This document shows, piece after piece, positions 3,415 through 56,257 of a DNA stretch of 64,000 nt (its first letter is position 1; the number at the start of each line of letters is the position of its first letter). The DNA is from Alcanivorax jadensis T9 (GTDB taxonomy: Bacteria > Pseudomonadota > Gammaproteobacteria > Pseudomonadales > Alcanivoracaceae), in assembly GCF_000756655.1 (NCBI RefSeq), contig NZ_ARXU01000002.1, positions 248,001 to 312,000 on the forward strand, in the 5' to 3' direction. Under the pieces are notes generated by a model. That model ran no database searches and was not told the origin of the DNA. It saw nothing but the letters and a program-made list of their open reading frames with translations. The position numbers and the translations under genes were made by a program.

Positions 3415-3495
3415 TGCCTGACGCCTGACGCCTGACGCCTGACGCTAATCACTTTAAGGACAGCGTTTTCGCGTCAAGCATCAGGTTCGACAGGC
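3415..3495. repeat. Heptamer array ACGCCTG with inverted partner
   Basis: Starting right after the ponA stop codon, about four copies of a 7-bp unit ACGCCTG run to 3444. At about 3471-3486 a degenerate inverted copy (GCGTCAAGCATCAGG) faces it, with about 26 bp between the two arms. A further set of 7-bp units (TCTTGCA, TCAAGCG, TCTTGGA, TCAAGCG) follows the terminator at about 3529-3556, next to the end of maeB. The arrangement matches other heptamer elements in this window. Confidence 0.75.
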
Positions 3496-3499
3496 CCAT

Positions 3500-3527
3500 A
3501 AAAAAACCGCCTTTCGGCGGTTTTTTC
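3500..3527. terminator. Bidirectional intrinsic terminator between ponA and maeB
   Basis: The stem AAAAAACCGCC / GGCGGTTTTTT with a short TTTC loop is flanked by runs of A and T. It can therefore terminate transcription of ponA on the plus strand and maeB on the minus strand. Confidence 0.9.
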
Positions 3528-3563
3528 GTCTTGCATCAAGCGTCTTGGATCAAGCGCGCCCCA

Positions 3564-10100: not shown

Positions 10101-10232
10101 AATGGATAATTGATAACGACCCAATCCATGGCTGTGACTCTCAAAGCGCAGACGTCGCAACGAAACCATGAGCGCACCCTCTGCTGGCCCGGCACCAAAC
10201 CCCCTCGCGAGCTATCCACTATCAATCATCAA
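10101..10232. repeat. Degenerate copy of the heptamer-armed element
   Basis: The left arm AATGGATAATTGATAAC is identical to 17 bases of the left arm of the complete element at 37231-37386. The right arm at 10212-10232 agrees at 18 of 20 positions with the right arm of the element at 23325-23471, counted by eye, but it lacks one internal 7-bp unit. The central GC hairpin found in the other two copies is absent. Confidence 0.65.
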
Positions 10233-10246
10233 ATGCCCTCTCTTCC

Positions 10247-21939: not shown

Positions 21940-22859
21940 TCGTCAATCCTCTTTTCCAGTCGATTTACCGCATCCATCAGTGCATTGGAAATCGCCGGGT
22001 CGGAGGAAGAATGACTGCCCCCTTCCACCCAGTGGAGTCGACTGCCTGGCAATACCTGATGCAGAGCAAGGGCCTGATCCGCCGGGCAGACAAAATCCCG
22101 GGTGCCGTGAACCATTTCCACCGGCAGGGTCATGCCGGCACAAGCCTCCAGCAACGGCGCTGTCAGGAAACCATCATGAAGAAAATAATGGGTTTCCTGC
22201 ATGGCCATGCATAACTCATCGTCACTGGCTTCACCGGACGGTAGCACCGACGTTAACGCCAGCGTGGACTCCCAGTTACACCAGCTGCGGGCATGATAGC
22301 GGGCACGATCTCCTTTCAGCCCCTGATGATAGCGCTGCAGCAGGCTCCCCTCGCCAGGCGGGGCCTGCTTCTGTAATGCAGCCCATTCTTCAGGGAACAG
22401 CCGCGCCGCACCCTCTGACGTATAAAGCCAGTCACGATCCTGCTGACGACAGAGGAAGACGCCCCGCAGCACCATACCGACGACTCGCTGCGGATGCGCC
22501 GCCAGATAGGCCAGAGCCAGAGTGACGCCCCAGGAACCACCAAACACTCGCCATCGCTCCACCCCAAGGGCCTCGCGGAGAGATTCCAGATCAGCAATCA
22601 GATGCGAGGTGGTATTGTGGCTGGTAGACGCAAAGGGACGGCTTTGACCACTACCCCGCTGGTCGAAGAGAATAATGCGAAACCGCCGGGGATCGAAAAA
22701 GCGGCCCATGAACGGCGAGCAACCGCCACCGGGGCCACCGTGCAACACGATCACTGGCACGCCGTTCGGGTTACCACTTTCTTCCACATAAAGCTGATGC
22801 CCCTGACCCACCGGCACCAGAGACTGCCGATAACTGTTCGGCAAGGGAAATAACGCCAT
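21936..22859 (-). CDS. pip: Prolyl iminopeptidase
   Basis: This alpha/beta hydrolase of family S33 removes N-terminal proline from peptides. It has 307 residues with HGGPGGGCSP as the oxyanion loop, FDQRGSGQSRP, and the nucleophile elbow GGSWGVTLAL. The acid is in HGTRDFVCP and the histidine in EGGSHSS. The frame is open upstream, but the protein family starts at MALFPLPN. That ATG shares its CATG with the divergent lipoprotein start, so the divergent genes have no spacer. Confidence 0.92.
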   Translation of the reverse strand: MALFPLPNSYRQSLVPVGQGHQLYVEESGNPNGVPVIVLHGGPGGGCSPFMGRFFDPRRFRIILFDQRGSGQSRPFASTSHNTTSHLIADLESLREALGVERWRVFGGSWGVTLALAYLAAHPQRVVGMVLRGVFLCRQQDRDWLYTSEGAARLFPEEWAALQKQAPPGEGSLLQRYHQGLKGDRARYHARSWCNWESTLALTSVLPSGEASDDELCMAMQETHYFLHDGFLTAPLLEACAGMTLPVEMVHGTRDFVCPADQALALHQVLPGSRLHWVEGGSHSSSDPAISNALMDAVNRLEKRIDD

Positions 22860-23325
22860 GAGAACTGCACTTGTCTGCAGAAAGATTTCAGCATACCTGC
22901 TGCTGATTGCCCTGCAACTGTTGATCGCTGGCTGCAACAAAACACCACCGGAGCAAGCCATTCTGGATGCTCTGGAAAAGCTTGAGACAGCCATAGAAGC
23001 CGGCGATACCGGCACGGTTATGGATGCCCTCACCGATCCGGCAGAGATTCAGCGTGGCGGCCAGATCCTGCAGCGCGACGAGCTTCGGCGCCTGGTGATG
23101 GGCACTTTCCTGCGCTACCCGAAGCGTCAGCTCGCACTCACCCAGATCAACATCGAGCTGGATCCGGTTACCCAGCGCCACGCCCGCGTCACCTTCACCG
23201 CCTTCGCCTGGGGCGGGCAAAGCGTGATGCCCGACAACGCCGACAGCTACCGGGTGGTGAGCGACTGGCGCGAGGACGGAGAGTGGAAGATTGAGGGGCT
23301 GACGGCGAACGGGCTTAGGGAGTGA
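22858..23325 (+). CDS. Small lipoprotein with NTF2-like fold
   Basis: This 155-residue protein has a lipoprotein signal, with the lipobox LIAGC near residue 25. The mature part begins with a helix (EQAILDALEKLETAIEAGDTGTVMDALTD), then alternating strands ending in YRVVSDWREDGEWKIEGLTANGL. That order, with a terminal VSDWREDGEWKI strand, resembles NTF2/SnoaL-like domains. Function unknown. GGGA ten bases upstream supports the start. The TGA stop touches the first base of the repeat element that follows. Confidence 0.75.
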   Translation: MRTALVCRKISAYLLLIALQLLIAGCNKTPPEQAILDALEKLETAIEAGDTGTVMDALTDPAEIQRGGQILQRDELRRLVMGTFLRYPKRQLALTQINIELDPVTQRHARVTFTAFAWGGQSVMPDNADSYRVVSDWREDGEWKIEGLTANGLRE

Positions 23326-23471
23326 ATTGATAATTGATAACGACGCGGGTTGGCGTTCTGTTATCTTTGAGTGCAAGAGGCCGCGACTAAACCATTGTCG
23401 CGGCCTCTTGCGTTTTAAGCTTTACTATCCCTTCTGGCGAGTTATCAATTATCCATTCTCAATCATCAATT
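23325..23471. repeat. Heptamer-armed element with 14-bp central hairpin (copy A)
   Basis: The element fills the gap between convergent genes. The left arm is two AATTGAT units plus AAC. The right arm at 23441-23471 is four 7-bp units (ATCAATT, ATCCATT, CTCAATC, ATCAATT). In the middle GCAAGAGGCCGCGA (23373-23386) pairs perfectly with 23398-23411. Its right arm matches that of the element at 37231-37386 at 29 of 31 positions, and when the second copy is reversed the interiors also align without gaps over about 60 bases on the right side. Confidence 0.85.
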
Positions 23472-23476
23472 GCCTT

Positions 23477-24910
23477 TCAATCCTCTTCCCCTGCTGTCAA
23501 CTCTCCTTCCATATCCAGCTCCTTGATCTTGCGGGTAAGAGTGTTTCGCCCCCAGCCGAGCAGAGCGGCGGCGTCACGTTTGCGGCCGCCGGTGTGCTGC
23601 AGGGCCACTTCGATCATGGTGCGCTCAAAGCCGGGAACCGCCTGTTCGAGGATGCTGCGCTCACCCTGTGACAGGGCGCGATCGGCCCAGTTGCGCAGGG
23701 ACTTGAGCCAGTCGCCGGACACATCAGCCCCCTTGGCGGCACCCGCTTCTTTCAATTCCGGGGGCAAATCATCCACAAGGACTTCGCGACCGGACGCCAT
23801 TACGGTCAGCCAGCGACAGGTATTTTCCAGCTGCCGCACATTGCCCGGCCACGCCTGGGCAGACAGGTATTTCTCGGTATCCTTGTGCAGAATTTTCGGC
23901 TCCACACCCAATTCATGGCCTGCACGCTGGAGAAAATAATTGGCCAGCCGGGGAATGTCTTCGCGGCGCTCGGCCATACGCGGAATATGGATGCGAATCA
24001 CGTTTAGCCGGTGGAACAAATCCTCCCGGAAGTCCCCTTCCTTCACCAGTTTTTCCAAATCCTGGTGGGTGGCGGCAATAATCCGCACGTCCACATGGAT
24101 AGGCGTTGTACCTCCGACCCGGTAAAACTCACTTTCCTGCAATACCCGCAACAGACGGGTCTGCGCTTCCAGCGGCATATCACCGATTTCATCGAGAAAC
24201 AGGGTGCCGCCATTGGCCTGCTCGAAGCGGCCTACACGCTGGTTGTTGGCGCCAGTAAAGGCACCTTTTTCATGGCCAAACAGTTCCGACTCGATCAGAT
24301 CCTTGGGAATGGCCGCCATGTTCAGGGCAACGAAATTCTTTTCCCGCCGCATGGAATGGCTATGCAGTGCCCGCGCCACCAGCTCTTTACCGGTACCGGA
24401 CTGGCCATTGATCAATACGGTGACGTTGGAATGGCTGAGCCGACCAATAGCGCGAAACACCTCCTGCATGGCCGGTGCTTCACCGATAATCTCAGTGGAC
24501 TCTTCCTCCACCGCGGCCGGCTGTTCACCACGGGATTCTTCCCGGTGCTTGATGGCGCGGCGCACCAGCGCTACCGCCTCATCCACATCAAACGGCTTGG
24601 GCAGGTACTCAAAGGCCCCGCCCTGGTAGGAGGCCACCGCCGAATCCAGATCGGAATGGGCGGTCATGATGATCACCGGCAGGTCCGGATTCTTGCGCTG
24701 CAGGATCTTGAGCATGCGCAGGCCATCAGTACCGGGCATTCGCACGTCACTGATCAGCACCTCCGGCTCCTGCGCTCCCTCTTCCAGGGTATTCAGCGCC
24801 TCATCGCCATCTTCGAAACAGGTTACCGCGTATCCTTCCTGGCTCAGTGCCTTTTCCAGCACCCAGCGAATGGAGCGGTCATCGTCGACTACCCATACGG
24901 TTACGCTCAT
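23477..24910 (-). CDS. ntrC: Nitrogen regulation response regulator NtrC
   Basis: This sigma-54-dependent activator of nitrogen assimilation genes is phosphorylated by NtrB. It has 477 residues. The receiver domain has phosphoacceptor D55 in LISDVRMPG. The AAA+ domain has Walker A GQSGTGKE at 169-176, the sigma-54 contact loop GAFTGA at 216-221 and Walker B TLFLDEIGD at 236-244. The C-terminal Fis-type helix-turn-helix is GRKRDAAALLGWGRNTLTRKIKEL. It lies 55 bp after ntrB and is expected to act on the sites upstream of glnA and ntrB in this window. Confidence 0.97.
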   Translation of the reverse strand: MSVTVWVVDDDRSIRWVLEKALSQEGYAVTCFEDGDEALNTLEEGAQEPEVLISDVRMPGTDGLRMLKILQRKNPDLPVIIMTAHSDLDSAVASYQGGAFEYLPKPFDVDEAVALVRRAIKHREESRGEQPAAVEEESTEIIGEAPAMQEVFRAIGRLSHSNVTVLINGQSGTGKELVARALHSHSMRREKNFVALNMAAIPKDLIESELFGHEKGAFTGANNQRVGRFEQANGGTLFLDEIGDMPLEAQTRLLRVLQESEFYRVGGTTPIHVDVRIIAATHQDLEKLVKEGDFREDLFHRLNVIRIHIPRMAERREDIPRLANYFLQRAGHELGVEPKILHKDTEKYLSAQAWPGNVRQLENTCRWLTVMASGREVLVDDLPPELKEAGAAKGADVSGDWLKSLRNWADRALSQGERSILEQAVPGFERTMIEVALQHTGGRKRDAAALLGWGRNTLTRKIKELDMEGELTAGEED

Positions 24911-28915: not shown

Positions 28916-28929
28916 CAGGGATCCCTGGG

Positions 28930-28985
28930 TTCTAGCTTCTAGCTTCTAGCTTCTAGCTTCTAGCTTCTAGCTTCTAGCTTCTAAA
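28930..28985. repeat. Tandem array of 7-bp unit TTCTAGC
   Basis: Seven perfect copies of TTCTAGC are followed by an eighth, altered copy (TTCTAAA). The array lies between the TusA-like gene and the PP-loop gene. No inverted partner is seen nearby. Perfect identity between units suggests recent expansion or contraction. Confidence 0.95.
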
Positions 28986-36574: not shown

Positions 36575-36772
36575 GGTACCAGCCTTGTTATTTTTTCCCT
36601 CACAGGTAACAAGCAGTACCATGCGCGGCCCACCAAGGCAAAACATAAGAGCAGTGCTTCGCCGCAACACGAACGGGCGATTACCCTTGTTAAGGCAGAA
36701 TGACTACACTGCGCAGTCGCAATAAGAGCCCGGCGACAGAATTCGCTGCGCCCAGACTTGAAACAGGTTCCC

Positions 36773-37246
36773 ATGCTCCATATCGCACTGTTCGAACCGG
36801 AAATCCCCCCCAACACCGGTAACATCATCCGCCTGGCCGCCAACACCGGGGCCCACCTGCACCTGATAGAGCCACTGGGCTTTTCCCTGGAGGAAAAGAA
36901 ACTGCGCCGCGCCGGGCTGGACTACAATGAACTGGCCCACCTCACCGTGCATGCGGATTTTGTCGCTTTTCTGGACGCAATGGAGGGTAAACGCCTGTTT
37001 GCCCTGACCACCCGGGCCAGCCAGCCACACAGTGATGCGGTGTTCGCAGACGAGGATGTGCTGCTGTTCGGTCCGGAAACCCGCGGCCTGCCCACCGACA
37101 TTCTCGACAGCCTGCCACCCACCCAAAAACTGCGCCTGCCCATGGTGGCGAACAGCCGCAGCCTCAATCTTGCCAATGCGGTGTCGGTGACGCTGTATGA
37201 GGCATGGCGGCAGCTGGACTACATAGGGGCAATTGAGAATGGATAA
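36773..37246 (+). CDS. trmL: tRNA (cytidine/uridine-34 2'-O)-methyltransferase TrmL
   Basis: This SPOUT-family enzyme methylates the ribose of the wobble base in tRNA-Leu isoacceptors. At 157 residues it equals the E. coli protein. It opens [26 protein letters not shown] and includes [15 protein letters not shown] and [21 protein letters not shown], the motifs of the deep knot that bind SAM. An upstream TTG is in frame, but ATG 36773 fits the family. The final residues GAIENG and the TAA stop are encoded inside the heptamer element, which has taken over the original gene end. Confidence 0.95.
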
Positions 37247-37386
37247 TTGATAACTCGCGGGAACGGACATCAAGTCCTGAAACGCAAGAGGCCGCGTCCA
37301 AGCGTTTGGACGCGGCCTCTTGCATTTAAAGACAATAGCAACGTCAATCCGTGGCGTTATCAATTATCCATTTTCAATTATCAATT
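37231..37386. repeat. Heptamer-armed element with 18-bp central hairpin (copy B)
   Basis: The left arm is AATTGAG, AATGGAT, AATTGAT, AAC. The right arm at 37356-37386 is GTT followed by four 7-bp units and mirrors the left with one mismatch. In the centre GCAAGAGGCCGCGTCCAA (37284-37301) pairs perfectly with 37306-37323 around a four-base loop. It is inserted in the opposite orientation to the copy at 23325-23471. It starts inside trmL and ends one base before the secB stop. Confidence 0.88.
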
Positions 37387-37387
37387 C

Positions 37388-37861
37388 TTACTGAACCGTC
37401 TCACCCTCAGCTTCAGCCTGCGCTTTCGCCTGCTGCTGGCGTTGCTGCTGGTACAGGGCATCGAAGTTGATCGGCTGCAGGACCATTTGCGGGAAGGAGC
37501 CCTTGGCGACCAGGTCCGAGACCACTTCGCGCACATAAGGGAACAGCAGGTTCGGGCAGTAGGCACCGAGCAACTGGGCACGCTCTTCGCCCTCCACACC
37601 CTTCACGGTGAAGATACCGGCCTGCTTCACTTCTGCCAGATAGAAGGTTTTCTCTTCCTTCTCGTCCTTAGCGGTGACCGTGACAGTCAACTCCACTTCA
37701 AATTCATCGGTCTCGCCAATGCGGCGGGCGCCGTTATTGAGCTGTACATTAACCTTGGGCTTCCACTCTTCCAGGAACACTTCCGGCGCCCCCGGGCACT
37801 CGAAAGAGGCATCTTTCAGATAAATACGCTGCAGCTGGAAAACCTGTTGTTGTTCGGCCAT
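37388..37861 (-). CDS. secB: Protein-export chaperone SecB
   Basis: SecB is a tetrameric cytosolic chaperone that keeps preproteins unfolded and passes them to SecA. It has 157 residues. FQLQRIYLKDASFECPGAPEVF is the conserved first strand, and GAYCPNLLFPYVREVVSDLVAKGSFPQMVLQPINFDALY is the signature of the peptide-binding groove. The frame continues upstream into the glutaredoxin region, but MAEQQQVFQLQ is the standard start. Order rhodanese-grxC-secB is conserved in pseudomonads. Confidence 0.98.
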   Translation of the reverse strand: MAEQQQVFQLQRIYLKDASFECPGAPEVFLEEWKPKVNVQLNNGARRIGETDEFEVELTVTVTAKDEKEEKTFYLAEVKQAGIFTVKGVEGEERAQLLGAYCPNLLFPYVREVVSDLVAKGSFPQMVLQPINFDALYQQQRQQQAKAQAEAEGETVQ

Positions 37862-37874
37862 GGTTTTTCTCCTG

Positions 37875-38153
37875 TTACTTTGTTCCCGACTCCCCCGAAT
37901 TGGCGCCGAGCAGCGAATCCAGCTCCCCTGCGCGCTCCAGAGCATAAAGTTCATCACAACCGCCGATGGGGCGATCATCAATAAAGATCTGTGGCACCGT
38001 ACGAGCCCCGCCACGCTGCATCATCACCGCACGTTGATCAGGCTCTCGATCCACATCCGTATCGTGGTACGGAATGTTTTTGCTGTTCAGCAACTGCTTG
38101 GCGCGAACGCAAAAAGGGCACCAACCTGTGGTATAAAGCTCCACTTTGGCCAT
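37875..38153 (-). CDS. grxC: Glutaredoxin 3
   Basis: This 92-residue thiol-disulfide oxidoreductase uses glutathione. The active site CPFC is in YTTGWCPFCVRAKQLL, and ARTVPQIFIDDRPIGGCDELYAL contains the cis-Pro and glutathione-binding residues. MAKVELYT is preferred over upstream in-frame codons. It lies 13 bp from secB and the rhodanese. Confidence 0.96.
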   Translation of the reverse strand: MAKVELYTTGWCPFCVRAKQLLNSKNIPYHDTDVDREPDQRAVMMQRGGARTVPQIFIDDRPIGGCDELYALERAGELDSLLGANSGESGTK

Positions 38154-48431: not shown

Positions 48432-50642
48432 ATGGGACGCTTGATAAAAATTTTGCTGATCACAATTTTTGCCATCATTCTGCTATTGGCTATCGCGGTT
48501 TTTGTGATCACACAGGTGATTGATCCCAACGAGTTCAAACCGGAAATTGAAAAACAGGCCAGGGAGCAGGCCAATCTGACTCTGGATATCCAGGGCGACC
48601 TGGCATGGCAATTCTGGCCATCGCTGGGCGTCAGCCTGGGCCGCACCGAGGCCCGCATCGCGGATGAGGAGGAGCTGTTTGCCGCTCTCAACGCGGCCAG
48701 CGTCAGTGTTGCAGTACTTCCCCTGCTGTACGGTCAGGTGGAGATGGACGGCATCACGCTGGCAGGCCTGGATGTAAACCTGATCGAGGAGCCGGATGGC
48801 GCCAACTGGGAGCAGATCGGCCCGCAAACTGCGGCGGAAGAAACGCCGGAGGAGGCAACCACCGCCGCTGACGAAGAAGGCAGCAGCAGCCTGGATATTC
48901 CCCTTACCATTCCCAGCGTGGCCGTCACCGACGGCAAGGTGCGCTATCGCAACACCAGCGACGGCACCGACATCGTGGTAGAGCATTTCAACCTGAACGC
49001 CCAGGACGTCAATCTGGATGAGGCTTTCCCACTGCAGATGTCACTGCGTTATCAGGACCAGAGCGACATGCGGGTGGACCTGAATCTGGACACCACTCTC
49101 ACCACCGATCTGGATGCCAACCACTTCATCCTTGACCCGATGACCCTGGACGCCAACATCGCCGGCGCCACCACCATGCCAGTGGATGTGCACCTGGAAC
49201 AGAAGCTCGACGTGAACCTCAACGAGGACACCGTCTCTATCAAGGATCTGCTGCTCACCGCCGCTGGCACCGAAACCCGCGGCAACATCGACATCGCCGC
49301 CCTCACTGGCGACATGCAGCTCAGCGGTAATCTGTCCACCGCCCCCTTTGACGCCAACAAGGTACTGGAAGCCATCGGCGAAGCCCCCATCGAGACCACC
49401 GACAGCAAGGCGCTCAGCAACATCGCCATGGAGACCACTCTGGCCGGCGAGCCCGGCAGCGTCATGGCCAACCCGCTGAAGATCACGCTGGACAGCAGCA
49501 CTCTCAGCGGCAGCGCCGGCCTGGCCAGCCTGGAAAGCGGCAAGATCATTTTTGACCTGGCGCTGGACCAGATCACCCTGGACGGCTACATGCCGCCATC
49601 CTTGGATGAGCCGGCCACCGCTGCTGCCGGCGGCGGCAAGGACGGCGGCACCGCCAACCTGTCCACCGCGGAACTGATTCCGGTAGAAGCTCTCCGCCCC
49701 CTTGTCATGGATGGCAAACTGCGCATCGGCAGCCTGAAGTACGACACCATCGACGCGAGCAATCTGAAATTTGCAGTCACTGCCAACAACGGCATCCTGC
49801 AGCTCACTGAAGCCCGCGGCGACACTCTCGGTGGCAGCTTCAGCGCCAAAGGGAAGCTGGATGCGTCCGGCAACACTCCACGCATCACCGCCAGCAACAC
49901 CGTGACCAGCATGCAGATCCAGCCACTTGTACAACTGGCGCTGGAAGACGACCTGGCCAAGGGCATTTTCGCCATGAGCGGCAGCTACAGCGCCAGCGGA
50001 AATAGTGAAAAAGCACTGATGGATTCCGCAAAAGGCACTATCGACATGTCACTGGCCGATGCCACCGTGCGCGGCCTCAACCTTTACCAGACCCTGGTCG
50101 GCGGCGTAAACGATATGCTTGGCCAGTTCCAGGGCCTGGCCACAGCACTGATCCCCAATCAGGAATCCGGCAAGCTGCCCAGCGCCCTGTCCGAAGACAC
50201 CAAGATCGTGGACCTGACCACCAAGGCGCGTCTGGACAAGAACGTGGCCTACCTGGACAGCCTGAATGCGGTACTCAGCAAAGGTGAGATCACCGGTAAC
50301 GGCTGGATGAATATCCTCAATCAGGATTTCGACCTGAAAATCGGCATGCAGTCCCCGGAACTGGGTACCTCCAAGTACCTGGAAGGCACCACCTGGCCGC
50401 TGCGCTGTGAAGGCAATCTGGGCGGCAGCCCCGCCAAATGGTGTGGCCCGGACAAATCCGGCTTCAAGGACATTGGCAAGCAAGTGGCCGCCAAAGCCGC
50501 TCAGCAAAAGATCAAGGACAAGCTGGGCATCGACGGCGAAGGCGACACCGCCGAGGAAGTGATCAAGGATGCCGCCAAGAAAAAGGCCAAGGAAGAAGTG
50601 GACAAACAGCTCAAGGATGGCCTGAAAAAGTTGTTTAACTAA
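48432..50642 (+). CDS. AsmA family protein
   Basis: This 736-residue inner-membrane-anchored periplasmic protein has one helix at about 5-27 (ILLITIFAIILLLAIAVFVITQVIDPNEF). ITLDIQGDLAWQFWPSLGVSLGRTEARI is the AsmA N-terminal signature. The middle is long and repetitive with beta strands rich in T, L, D and N, and the C-terminal TKARLDKNVAYLDSLNAVLSKGEITGNGWMNI is the AsmA-2 block. It ends in a Lys-rich helical tail (KKKAKEEVDKQLKDGLKKLFN). AsmA-like proteins are proposed lipid-transfer bridges in the envelope. Specific function not assigned. Confidence 0.88.
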   Translation: MGRLIKILLITIFAIILLLAIAVFVITQVIDPNEFKPEIEKQAREQANLTLDIQGDLAWQFWPSLGVSLGRTEARIADEEELFAALNAASVSVAVLPLLYGQVEMDGITLAGLDVNLIEEPDGANWEQIGPQTAAEETPEEATTAADEEGSSSLDIPLTIPSVAVTDGKVRYRNTSDGTDIVVEHFNLNAQDVNLDEAFPLQMSLRYQDQSDMRVDLNLDTTLTTDLDANHFILDPMTLDANIAGATTMPVDVHLEQKLDVNLNEDTVSIKDLLLTAAGTETRGNIDIAALTGDMQLSGNLSTAPFDANKVLEAIGEAPIETTDSKALSNIAMETTLAGEPGSVMANPLKITLDSSTLSGSAGLASLESGKIIFDLALDQITLDGYMPPSLDEPATAAAGGGKDGGTANLSTAELIPVEALRPLVMDGKLRIGSLKYDTIDASNLKFAVTANNGILQLTEARGDTLGGSFSAKGKLDASGNTPRITASNTVTSMQIQPLVQLALEDDLAKGIFAMSGSYSASGNSEKALMDSAKGTIDMSLADATVRGLNLYQTLVGGVNDMLGQFQGLATALIPNQESGKLPSALSEDTKIVDLTTKARLDKNVAYLDSLNAVLSKGEITGNGWMNILNQDFDLKIGMQSPELGTSKYLEGTTWPLRCEGNLGGSPAKWCGPDKSGFKDIGKQVAAKAAQQKIKDKLGIDGEGDTAEEVIKDAAKKKAKEEVDKQLKDGLKKLFN

Positions 50643-50727
50643 CGCCACACGCGGCACGCCTCACGCTACACGCCACGCCGGCTTCGTCACCGGCGCAAGG
50701 CGTGAAGCGTGTTGCATGCCTGCGTCT
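50643..50727. repeat. Heptamer array ACGCNNC with inverted partner and hairpin
   Basis: Right after the AsmA stop come five 7-bp units of pattern ACGCNNC (ACGCCAC, ACGCGGC, ACGCCTC, ACGCTAC, ACGCCAC). A hairpin, CGCCGG with CCGGCG around an eight-base loop, follows. An inverted set then appears (AGGCGTGAAGCGTGT). The same arm-hairpin-arm plan is seen in the elements at 23.3 and 37.2 kb, with a different unit. Confidence 0.78.
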
Positions 50728-55056: not shown

Positions 55057-56082
55057 ATGTCCGCTCGCTCGATCCTGGCACTGATCTACACCGTGGAACT
55101 TCTGGAAACAGAGAAAGGACTGGATTGCGCGCCGGTGCTGGCCCGCCATGGCCTGGACAAGGCCAGCCTGGACCCCAACAGCGAAATCGGCCGGGACCGG
55201 GAGCTGCTGATCTTTTCCGAGCTGCTGCCCCGGGTGGATGACCCGATGCTGGGTTTCGAAATGGGCAGTCGCTTCGGTTTTGCCGGCTATGGCCAGCTCA
55301 CCATGCTGCTGATGACCAGCGAAACCGCCTTTCAGGGCTTCCAGTTCGGCGTGAAATACCAGGCGCTTACCTATCTCTACGGCGAAATCGCCCTGACCCC
55401 GGGGGAGCACAGCACTGCCCTGGATCTGTACCCCATCTCACTGCCGCCGGAGCTGCGCCGCACCCTGATCGACCGGGACATGGTGGGCACCTTCAAGCTG
55501 GTCAACGATATCCAGACCCAGCTCAATCTGGACCTGAAACCGGCCGAGGTCTGGATGCCCTATGCCCGCCCACCGGAGGAACAGGTACGGAGATTCGAGG
55601 ACTATTTTGGCTGCCCGATACGCTATGACCAGCCCCACTGCCGAGCGCTGATTCGCAATCAGGACCTGGCCGTACGCCTGCCGGGCTACAACAAAATGGC
55701 CCAAGACATGTACCGCGACCAGTGCGACGCCATGCTGGCCCGTCGGGAGATTCCCACCGACAACCTGGCCACCCGGGTGGCCAGCTACCTGCAGCTGTTC
55801 GTACGCAGCTACCCCACTGCCGAGCAGGTGGCCCGGGCCTTCGGTATCCCGGAACGCAGCTTCCGGCGACAGTTAAGCAGCGAGCAAAAGCCCTTTCAGA
55901 GCATCATGGATCAGGTGCGCGAAGAGAAAGCGAAACGGTACCTGGCCGATTCAGAGAAAAGCGTGGCGCAGATCGGCGAGCTGTTGGGTTATAGCGAGTC
56001 GGCGGCCTTTGTAAGAGCGTTTGAACGATGGACGGGGATGACGCCGGCCCGCCATCGCAAAGAGGACAGGGATGGGCAGTAG
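55057..56082 (+). CDS. AraC family transcriptional regulator
   Basis: This 341-residue regulator has an N-terminal ligand-binding region at about 15-200 of the AraC_arabinose-binding-like type (GFEMGSRFGFAGYGQLTMLLMTSETAFQGFQF). The C-terminal double helix-turn-helix begins near VASYLQLFVRSYPTAEQVARAFGIPERSFRRQL and ends with GYSESAAFVRAFERWTGMTPARHR. It probably controls the divergent monooxygenase across the 124-bp shared promoter. Its TAG stop is part of the REP unit that follows. Confidence 0.9.
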   Translation: MSARSILALIYTVELLETEKGLDCAPVLARHGLDKASLDPNSEIGRDRELLIFSELLPRVDDPMLGFEMGSRFGFAGYGQLTMLLMTSETAFQGFQFGVKYQALTYLYGEIALTPGEHSTALDLYPISLPPELRRTLIDRDMVGTFKLVNDIQTQLNLDLKPAEVWMPYARPPEEQVRRFEDYFGCPIRYDQPHCRALIRNQDLAVRLPGYNKMAQDMYRDQCDAMLARREIPTDNLATRVASYLQLFVRSYPTAEQVARAFGIPERSFRRQLSSEQKPFQSIMDQVREEKAKRYLADSEKSVAQIGELLGYSESAAFVRAFERWTGMTPARHRKEDRDGQ

Positions 56083-56238
56083 GAGCGCCGCTTGAGGCGC
56101 GAACAACACCATTTCGAGTTACGAGAAACGAGTTTCGAAAACCAACACATCCGACCAGGCAGGTTTTGCCTTTCACAACTCGCTTCTCGAAACTCGTTAC
56201 TCGCTAACGCTCGTTTCGCGCCTCAAGCGGCGCTCCTA
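56080..56238. repeat. Composite element: outer REP pair enclosing inverted heptamer arrays
   Basis: The outer REP units at 56080-56103 and 56215-56238 (TAGGAGCGCCGCTTGAGGCG then CGAA) are perfect 24-bp inverted copies. Inside, the left 7-bp units CGAGTTA, CGAGAAA, CGAGTTT (56115-56135) face the right units ACTCGCT, TCTCGAA, ACTCGTT, ACTCGCT (56178-56205), which are their complements. A small GGCAGGTTTTGCC hairpin lies in the middle. The element starts in the AraC stop codon and ends 19 bp before the hldE stop. Confidence 0.88.
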
Positions 56239-56257
56239 CAGAGGCTTCGTAGAAAGA

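Follow-up and report, generated by a model that had tools for sequence, protein, structure and literature searches.

Two copies of a heptamer-armed element between convergent genes

The stretch of DNA analysed here (64,000 nucleotides of an Alcanivorax jadensis T9 contig, hereafter the window) contains two copies, A and B, of a short element, each lying between two genes that face each other (Table 1). The left arm of copy A overlaps the stop codon of the upstream gene by a single base, the last of the codon and the first of the arm, and on the far side of the copy lies a response regulator gene that we take to be of the NtrC type. Copy B is bordered by two genes, presumably trmL-like and secB-like, and supplies the stop codon of the former. 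Both copies are intergenic, not in an rRNA gene, and each has inverted arms of 7-bp units on either side of a GC hairpin.

Table 1 Coordinates of copies A and B, their neighbouring genes and other heptamer elements of the window
Feature	Position	Strand	Remarks
GACGCCT-type heptamer array element	3416..3550	.	between convergent genes; right end approximate
Third copy, AATTGAT-type arms	10102..10233	.	between co-directional genes; without GC hairpin
Gene upstream of copy A	22858..23325	+	155 aa, lipoprotein-like; stop codon touches left arm
Copy A	23325..23471		
Copy A left arm	23325..23341	+	AATTGAT units, GATAAC at end
Copy A central GC hairpin	23373..23411	.	15-bp stem (23373-23387 with 23397-23411); family core GCAAGAGGCCGCG
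Copy A right arm	23441..23471	-	four 7-bp units and 3 more bases, inverted
Response regulator gene facing copy A	23477..24910	-	stop codon 5 bases from right arm
(TTCTAGC)8 heptamer array	28925..28982	+	fewer units at orthologous site in two congeners
trmL-like gene	36758..37246	+	end inside copy B left arm
Copy B	37231..37386		
Copy B left arm	37231..37254	+	AATTGAG AATGGAT AATTGAT AAC
Copy B central GC hairpin	37284..37323	.	18-bp stem (37284-37301 with 37306-37323)
Copy B right arm	37356..37386	-	four 7-bp units and 3 more bases, inverted
secB-like gene	37388..38014	-	end one base outside copy B right arm
CACGCTA-type heptamer element with hairpin	50642..50715	.	

A first-pass annotation, made from the letters alone, had described A and B as inverted copies of a MITE-like repeat. 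As it stated, the right arms are identical at 29 of 31 positions and reversed copy B aligns with copy A, here over 139 bases (82% identity, E 2e-31) and thus beyond the arms. Of the stems that it gave as 14 and 18 bp, the second was confirmed, while that of copy A measured 15 bp. Its claim of a real family rather than chance is likewise upheld: an arm 15-mer (up to three mismatches) occurs 14 times in the window against 0.39 expected, and more than 40 further places in the genome match besides A and B. RNA folding gave z-scores of -8.3 for A and -14.9 for B, with no shuffled sequence folding as well, and the arms of both copies are predicted to pair into a stem in RNA.

Other heptamer elements are found in the window as well. 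At the site of the (TTCTAGC)8 array, 8, 6 and 4 units occur across three species, which may make it a typing marker. Furthermore, one convergent gap (56078-56240) holds nested repeats, in which a REP-like pair (GTAGGAGCGCCGCTTGAGGCGCG) surrounds an element with AGTTTCG-type heptamer arms. A role as DNA uptake signal was rejected, as no exact GCAAGAGGCCGCG occurs in the window outside the two hairpins.

A genus-wide family with variable arms

The repeat is a real, dispersed, non-coding inverted-repeat family present throughout the genus. At least 45 paired-arm elements, A and B included, occur among the copies sampled in the A. jadensis genome, and the element is present in all 17 Alcanivorax genomes and in none of 11 genomes outside the genus. 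In a wider species collection, the core hairpin pattern matched almost only Alcanivorax or Alcanivoracaceae records. An arm usually comprises four 7-bp units, and the interior usually spans 99-105 bp, mostly with a GC hairpin; some copies with the same arms, such as the third copy in Table 1, have no such hairpin. Most arms belong to one of two types, AATTGAT/AATTGAG/AATGGAT or TTAACTG/TTCACTG, either of which can enclose the same hairpin. Unit sequences vary between copies, and between species at one site. Elsewhere in the A. jadensis genome, three loci resemble copy B at 85-89% along almost its full length. Bases just outside the arms are weakly conserved (GCCTTT-like, each base in about half of the copies).

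Seven is the prevailing period. In 360-400 kb from each of three species, we counted 28, 44 and 45 period-7 arrays, against at most 8 for any other tested period. Stop codons in all frames occur with the AATTGAT, AGTTAAC and AATTAAT unit types; as a general reason for 7-bp units this fails, on reading the sequences, for the AGCTTCA, CACGCTA and AGTTTCG types. At five loci (L108, L112, L289, L298 and L300), one arm has grown to about 8-18 units with the other at about four, as if by one-sided slippage. At L066 (approximately 1360-1375), a run of about 12 G lies between hairpin and right arm and is possibly a hypermutable tract.

Elements sit at gene 3' ends and turn over at fixed sites

Placement relative to genes is strict. 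Convergent genes border 25 of the 45 paired elements, and all 25 reach from stop to stop: on both sides, the distance from the stop codon to the outer end of the arm is between -22 and +11 bases, individual values carrying some error from the simple codon-usage script that called the genes. In three species, arrays occupy 10/49, 12/37 and 11/43 convergent gaps and 13/125, 12/119 and 22/141 tandem gaps, and they are nearly absent from divergent (promoter) gaps (0/49, 2/37 and 0/40).

Orthologous sites keep the position of an element and change its sequence. Most congeners carry an element at the same position between trmL and secB, with differing arm families, and the ntrC site likewise keeps its position with differing arms, including long unit expansions in two species (to about 9 units in L108 and about 18 in L112). 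At C2:153527, as judged by eye, species share a similar interior and both arms have changed. The interior at C2:100893 is inverted between A. jadensis and congener G001 (Smith-Waterman 134 inverted, 75 direct), and that at C2:69931 is weakly inverted (108 versus 85); five other comparable pairs are direct. Arms and interiors therefore both change, sometimes jointly and sometimes separately. The comparison of sites with and without the element, which the first-pass annotation had proposed as a way to find a target duplication, yielded one element-free site, in the distant species G004, where trmL and secB overlap, with no clear target duplication. Among the compared sites, we found no transposition event and no empty-site pair with a target duplication.

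Most examined S23 genes carry heptamer arms

Being non-coding, A and B were thought to need a partner in trans, for which a transposase or RAYT flanked by the same arms had been suggested. None was found, and the three RAYT-like loci of A. jadensis lack heptamer arms. A partner in trans is plausible all the same: in one congener (L294, G009), AATTGAT-type arms like those of A and B surround an S23 gene, so the gene found with the same arms encodes S23 and not a known transposase. In A. jadensis itself, a 481-bp interval with AGTTGAC-type arms (C2:130601) encodes a four-helix-bundle protein of TIGR02436, near PDB 2rld and distant to 2gsc. These sequence comparisons suggest that the gene for S23, the 23S-rRNA-intervening-sequence protein (PF05635, TIGR02436), is the partner of the A/B family.

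PF05635 was present in 16 of 17 Alcanivorax genomes and in none of 14 control genomes. Period-7 arrays occur within 220 bp of the Alcanivorax S23 genes in 19/30 cases on the left and 20/30 on the right, compared with 4/236 control windows, related S23 loci within the genus not being independent of one another. For the 30 best-scoring loci of other gammaproteobacteria, the counts were 23/30 and 21/30, with 18/30 on both sides and 12/214 in controls; in a first count, 5 of these 30 had no array. Other periods gave 0 or 1 around these S23 genes and those of the plasmids. Plasmid S23 genes chosen from the hits in five further phyla (Cyanobacteriota, Spirochaetota, Bacteroidota, Bacillota and Chloroflexota), like the gammaproteobacterial loci a non-random sample, had arrays in 15/16 cases on the left, 16/16 on the right and 15/16 on both sides, against 6/128 in controls. 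Units differ widely between S23 loci, and the two arms flanking a given gene usually correspond to each other in inverted order.

Arms also vary together with the S23 gene that they enclose. Seven species carry S23 at the same place between glyA and nrdR, where three arm families pair with three S23 types independently of host relatedness. S23 identity and arm identity were correlated after correction for host flanks both there (partial r 0.79, reached in 14 of 5000 permutations) and at the cysC site (partial r 0.86, 0 of 5000), in small samples of 7 and 11 and with a permutation test that ignores the tree. Arms did not track host identity (r -0.28 at glyA-nrdR and 0.12 at cysC).

Other observations weigh against the link. 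The genome with the fewest elements in the genus, G015, has no S23 match and keeps 22 element matches, so copies can persist without S23. In a random sample, 10 arrays were found in 400 kb of S23-positive genomes and 2 in 373 kb of others, some of which are of untested S23 status; by genome, 6 of 20 versus 2 of 20 had arrays, a weak comparison. None of the three S23 genes of A. jadensis whose flanks were read (a fourth, partial match being left out) has AATTGAT arms, so no gene of this genome can at present be named as the cognate partner of A and B. Moreover, the inner edges of S23 elements showed neither the inner CGCG of ORF-less copies nor their GCAAGAGGCCGCG hairpin.

Two observations on plasmids may be added. 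Around an S23 element of a Dolichospermum plasmid (L402, 27262-35404), about eight extra heptamer arrays lie within a few kb, mostly (AATTACG)n, the heptamer of that element's own arms. Heptamer-flanked S23 genes also occur in plasmid defence loci, namely between cas2 and cas1 (L388 and L395), upstream of cas1 (L391), in a restriction-modification locus (L384) and at DISARM drmD (L393). An earlier survey had listed 23S_rRNA_IVP genes in cas loci (PMC3936711).

Discussion

Our preferred reading, to which we give a probability of about 60%, is that small elements with inverted arms of about four heptamers form a widespread class, some members of which encode S23, and that copies A and B belong to it as members without an ORF. 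Because A and B are too short and contain no S23 ORF, they can only be ORF-less relatives of S23/IVS-type elements. The intervening sequences (IVSs) of 23S rRNA genes seem to be elements of this kind too, and IVSs without an ORF are also known. In such a scheme, the S23 protein would recognise its own arms, either as DNA or as an RNA stem. Elements would be exchanged at fixed sites at gene ends, the arms and the S23 gene changing jointly, and ORF-less copies with matching arms would ride along, with S23 acting in trans and presumably driving their movement. An element may be tolerated at gene 3' ends because its arms lie at, and often supply, stop codons. Transcription arriving from either side may stop at the central hairpin, a role to which its placement and the strength of its stem point; at most four T in a row follow the hairpin, which is absent from the listing of a consensus terminator scan.

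The main rival is that these are bidirectional 3'-end hairpins made by the host, whose arms stem from 7-mer slippage and arm-to-arm copying with no mobility, S23 being merely cargo. Much of the evidence fits such an origin: the strict 3'-end placement with its stop-to-stop fit, the retention of the same site across the genus, changes in array length of the sort that slippage produces (about 9 units in L108 and about 18 in L112; 8, 6 and 4 units at one site) and the interior inversion at C2:100893, which is expected from arm-arm recombination. We nevertheless consider slippage with a host function unlikely, as it accounts neither for the arrays on both sides of S23 genes across six phyla, nor for the joint change of arms and S23 at fixed sites, nor for the close similarity, over nearly the full length, of ORF-less copies from separate loci in a single genome.

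Less probable still is a classical MITE that a DDE transposase or a RAYT mobilises through its arms, these acting as terminal inverted repeats. The A/B family does resemble MITEs in being short (a fixed size of about 150 bp), non-coding, multi-copy and bounded by inverted terminal repeats, and to that extent the first-pass label holds. RAYT-like genes, moreover, occur in 16 of the 17 genomes, the exception being G015, the genome poorest in elements. The reading as a classical MITE lacks support, however: a search that went locus by locus for RAYTs only turned up no transposase gene bearing these arms, the same sites are occupied genus-wide, no target duplication was established, and arms vary between copies with the architecture unchanged. 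The three RAYT-like loci in A. jadensis lack heptamer arms, and GTAGGAGC REP motifs occur at two of them. A retroelement-like system, in which reverse transcription copies the element, draws on the reported homology of PF05635 to Avd of diversity-generating retroelements (PMC10053308) and is very improbable, RVT_1 being unmatched in the A. jadensis genome and in 10 of 16 congeners.

Several known systems resemble the A/B family in part. The IVS of the Coxiella burnetii 23S rRNA gene encodes S23, is bounded by terminal inverted repeats of 28 bp and carries tandem heptamers ahead of the S23 ORF, and RNase III excision from RNA has been reported for it (PMC4990558). S23 IVSs resemble the A/B family as short, selfish-looking elements whose terminal inverted repeats form a stem; the A/B family differs in being intergenic and ORF-less and in having a GC hairpin. 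Xanthomonas genomes contain (GGGAATC)n repeats, mostly of four units, with about 70-75 inverted pairs per genome, near stop codons and rare between divergent genes; together with related Nostoc repeats, they were interpreted as G-quadruplex elements (PMC4692102). They share with the A/B family the four units, the inverted pairs, the proximity to stop codons and the rarity in divergent gaps. The arms described here, in contrast, are AT-rich or mixed and not G-rich, so quadruplex formation was rejected for them and cannot account for the architecture in general. The Coxiella IVS and the inverted heptamer pairs of Xanthomonas fit one class of element.

In the accessible part of one report, TAACTGA heptamer repeats of Beggiatoaceae, Cyanobacteria and Bacteroidetes are mostly direct and near start codons, and no link to S23 is mentioned (PMC4679880); these heptamer arrays likewise lie between genes, and their unit resembles that of the AGTTAAC family of Alcanivorax. 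REPs and REPINs are likewise intergenic palindromic repeats, and GTAG-type REPs are present in the A. jadensis genome. They differ in sequence and lack 7-bp units, and the RAYT loci of A. jadensis pair with REP motifs rather than with heptamer arms. On balance, the A/B family is best filed among ORF-less, intergenic relatives of S23/IVS-type elements and not as a classical MITE.

A broader proposition, which we advance tentatively and judge slightly less than even, is that S23 genes mark out an extensive and so far unrecognised class of mobile elements in at least six phyla, with inverted arrays of about four heptamers matched to their own S23 and ORF-less copies left at gene ends. The arrays of Xanthomonas, Cyanobacteria and Beggiatoaceae and the IVSs of 23S rRNA would then be one phenomenon with one protein. 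In the accessible part of the literature, where the Coxiella paper alone was relevant, the link between S23 and heptamers is undescribed, and it may have been published before. S23/IVP proteins are without known function (PMC4990558). The arms are candidate S23 substrates, and arm sequence can be matched to S23 type. To our knowledge, no catalytic function has been assigned to S23 proteins. S23 genes in CRISPR and restriction loci (PMC3936711; L384, L388, L391, L393 and L395) could be there as inserted elements and not for defence. The link to S23 makes two questions testable, namely what S23 does and what makes 7-bp repeats so frequent between the genes of bacteria.
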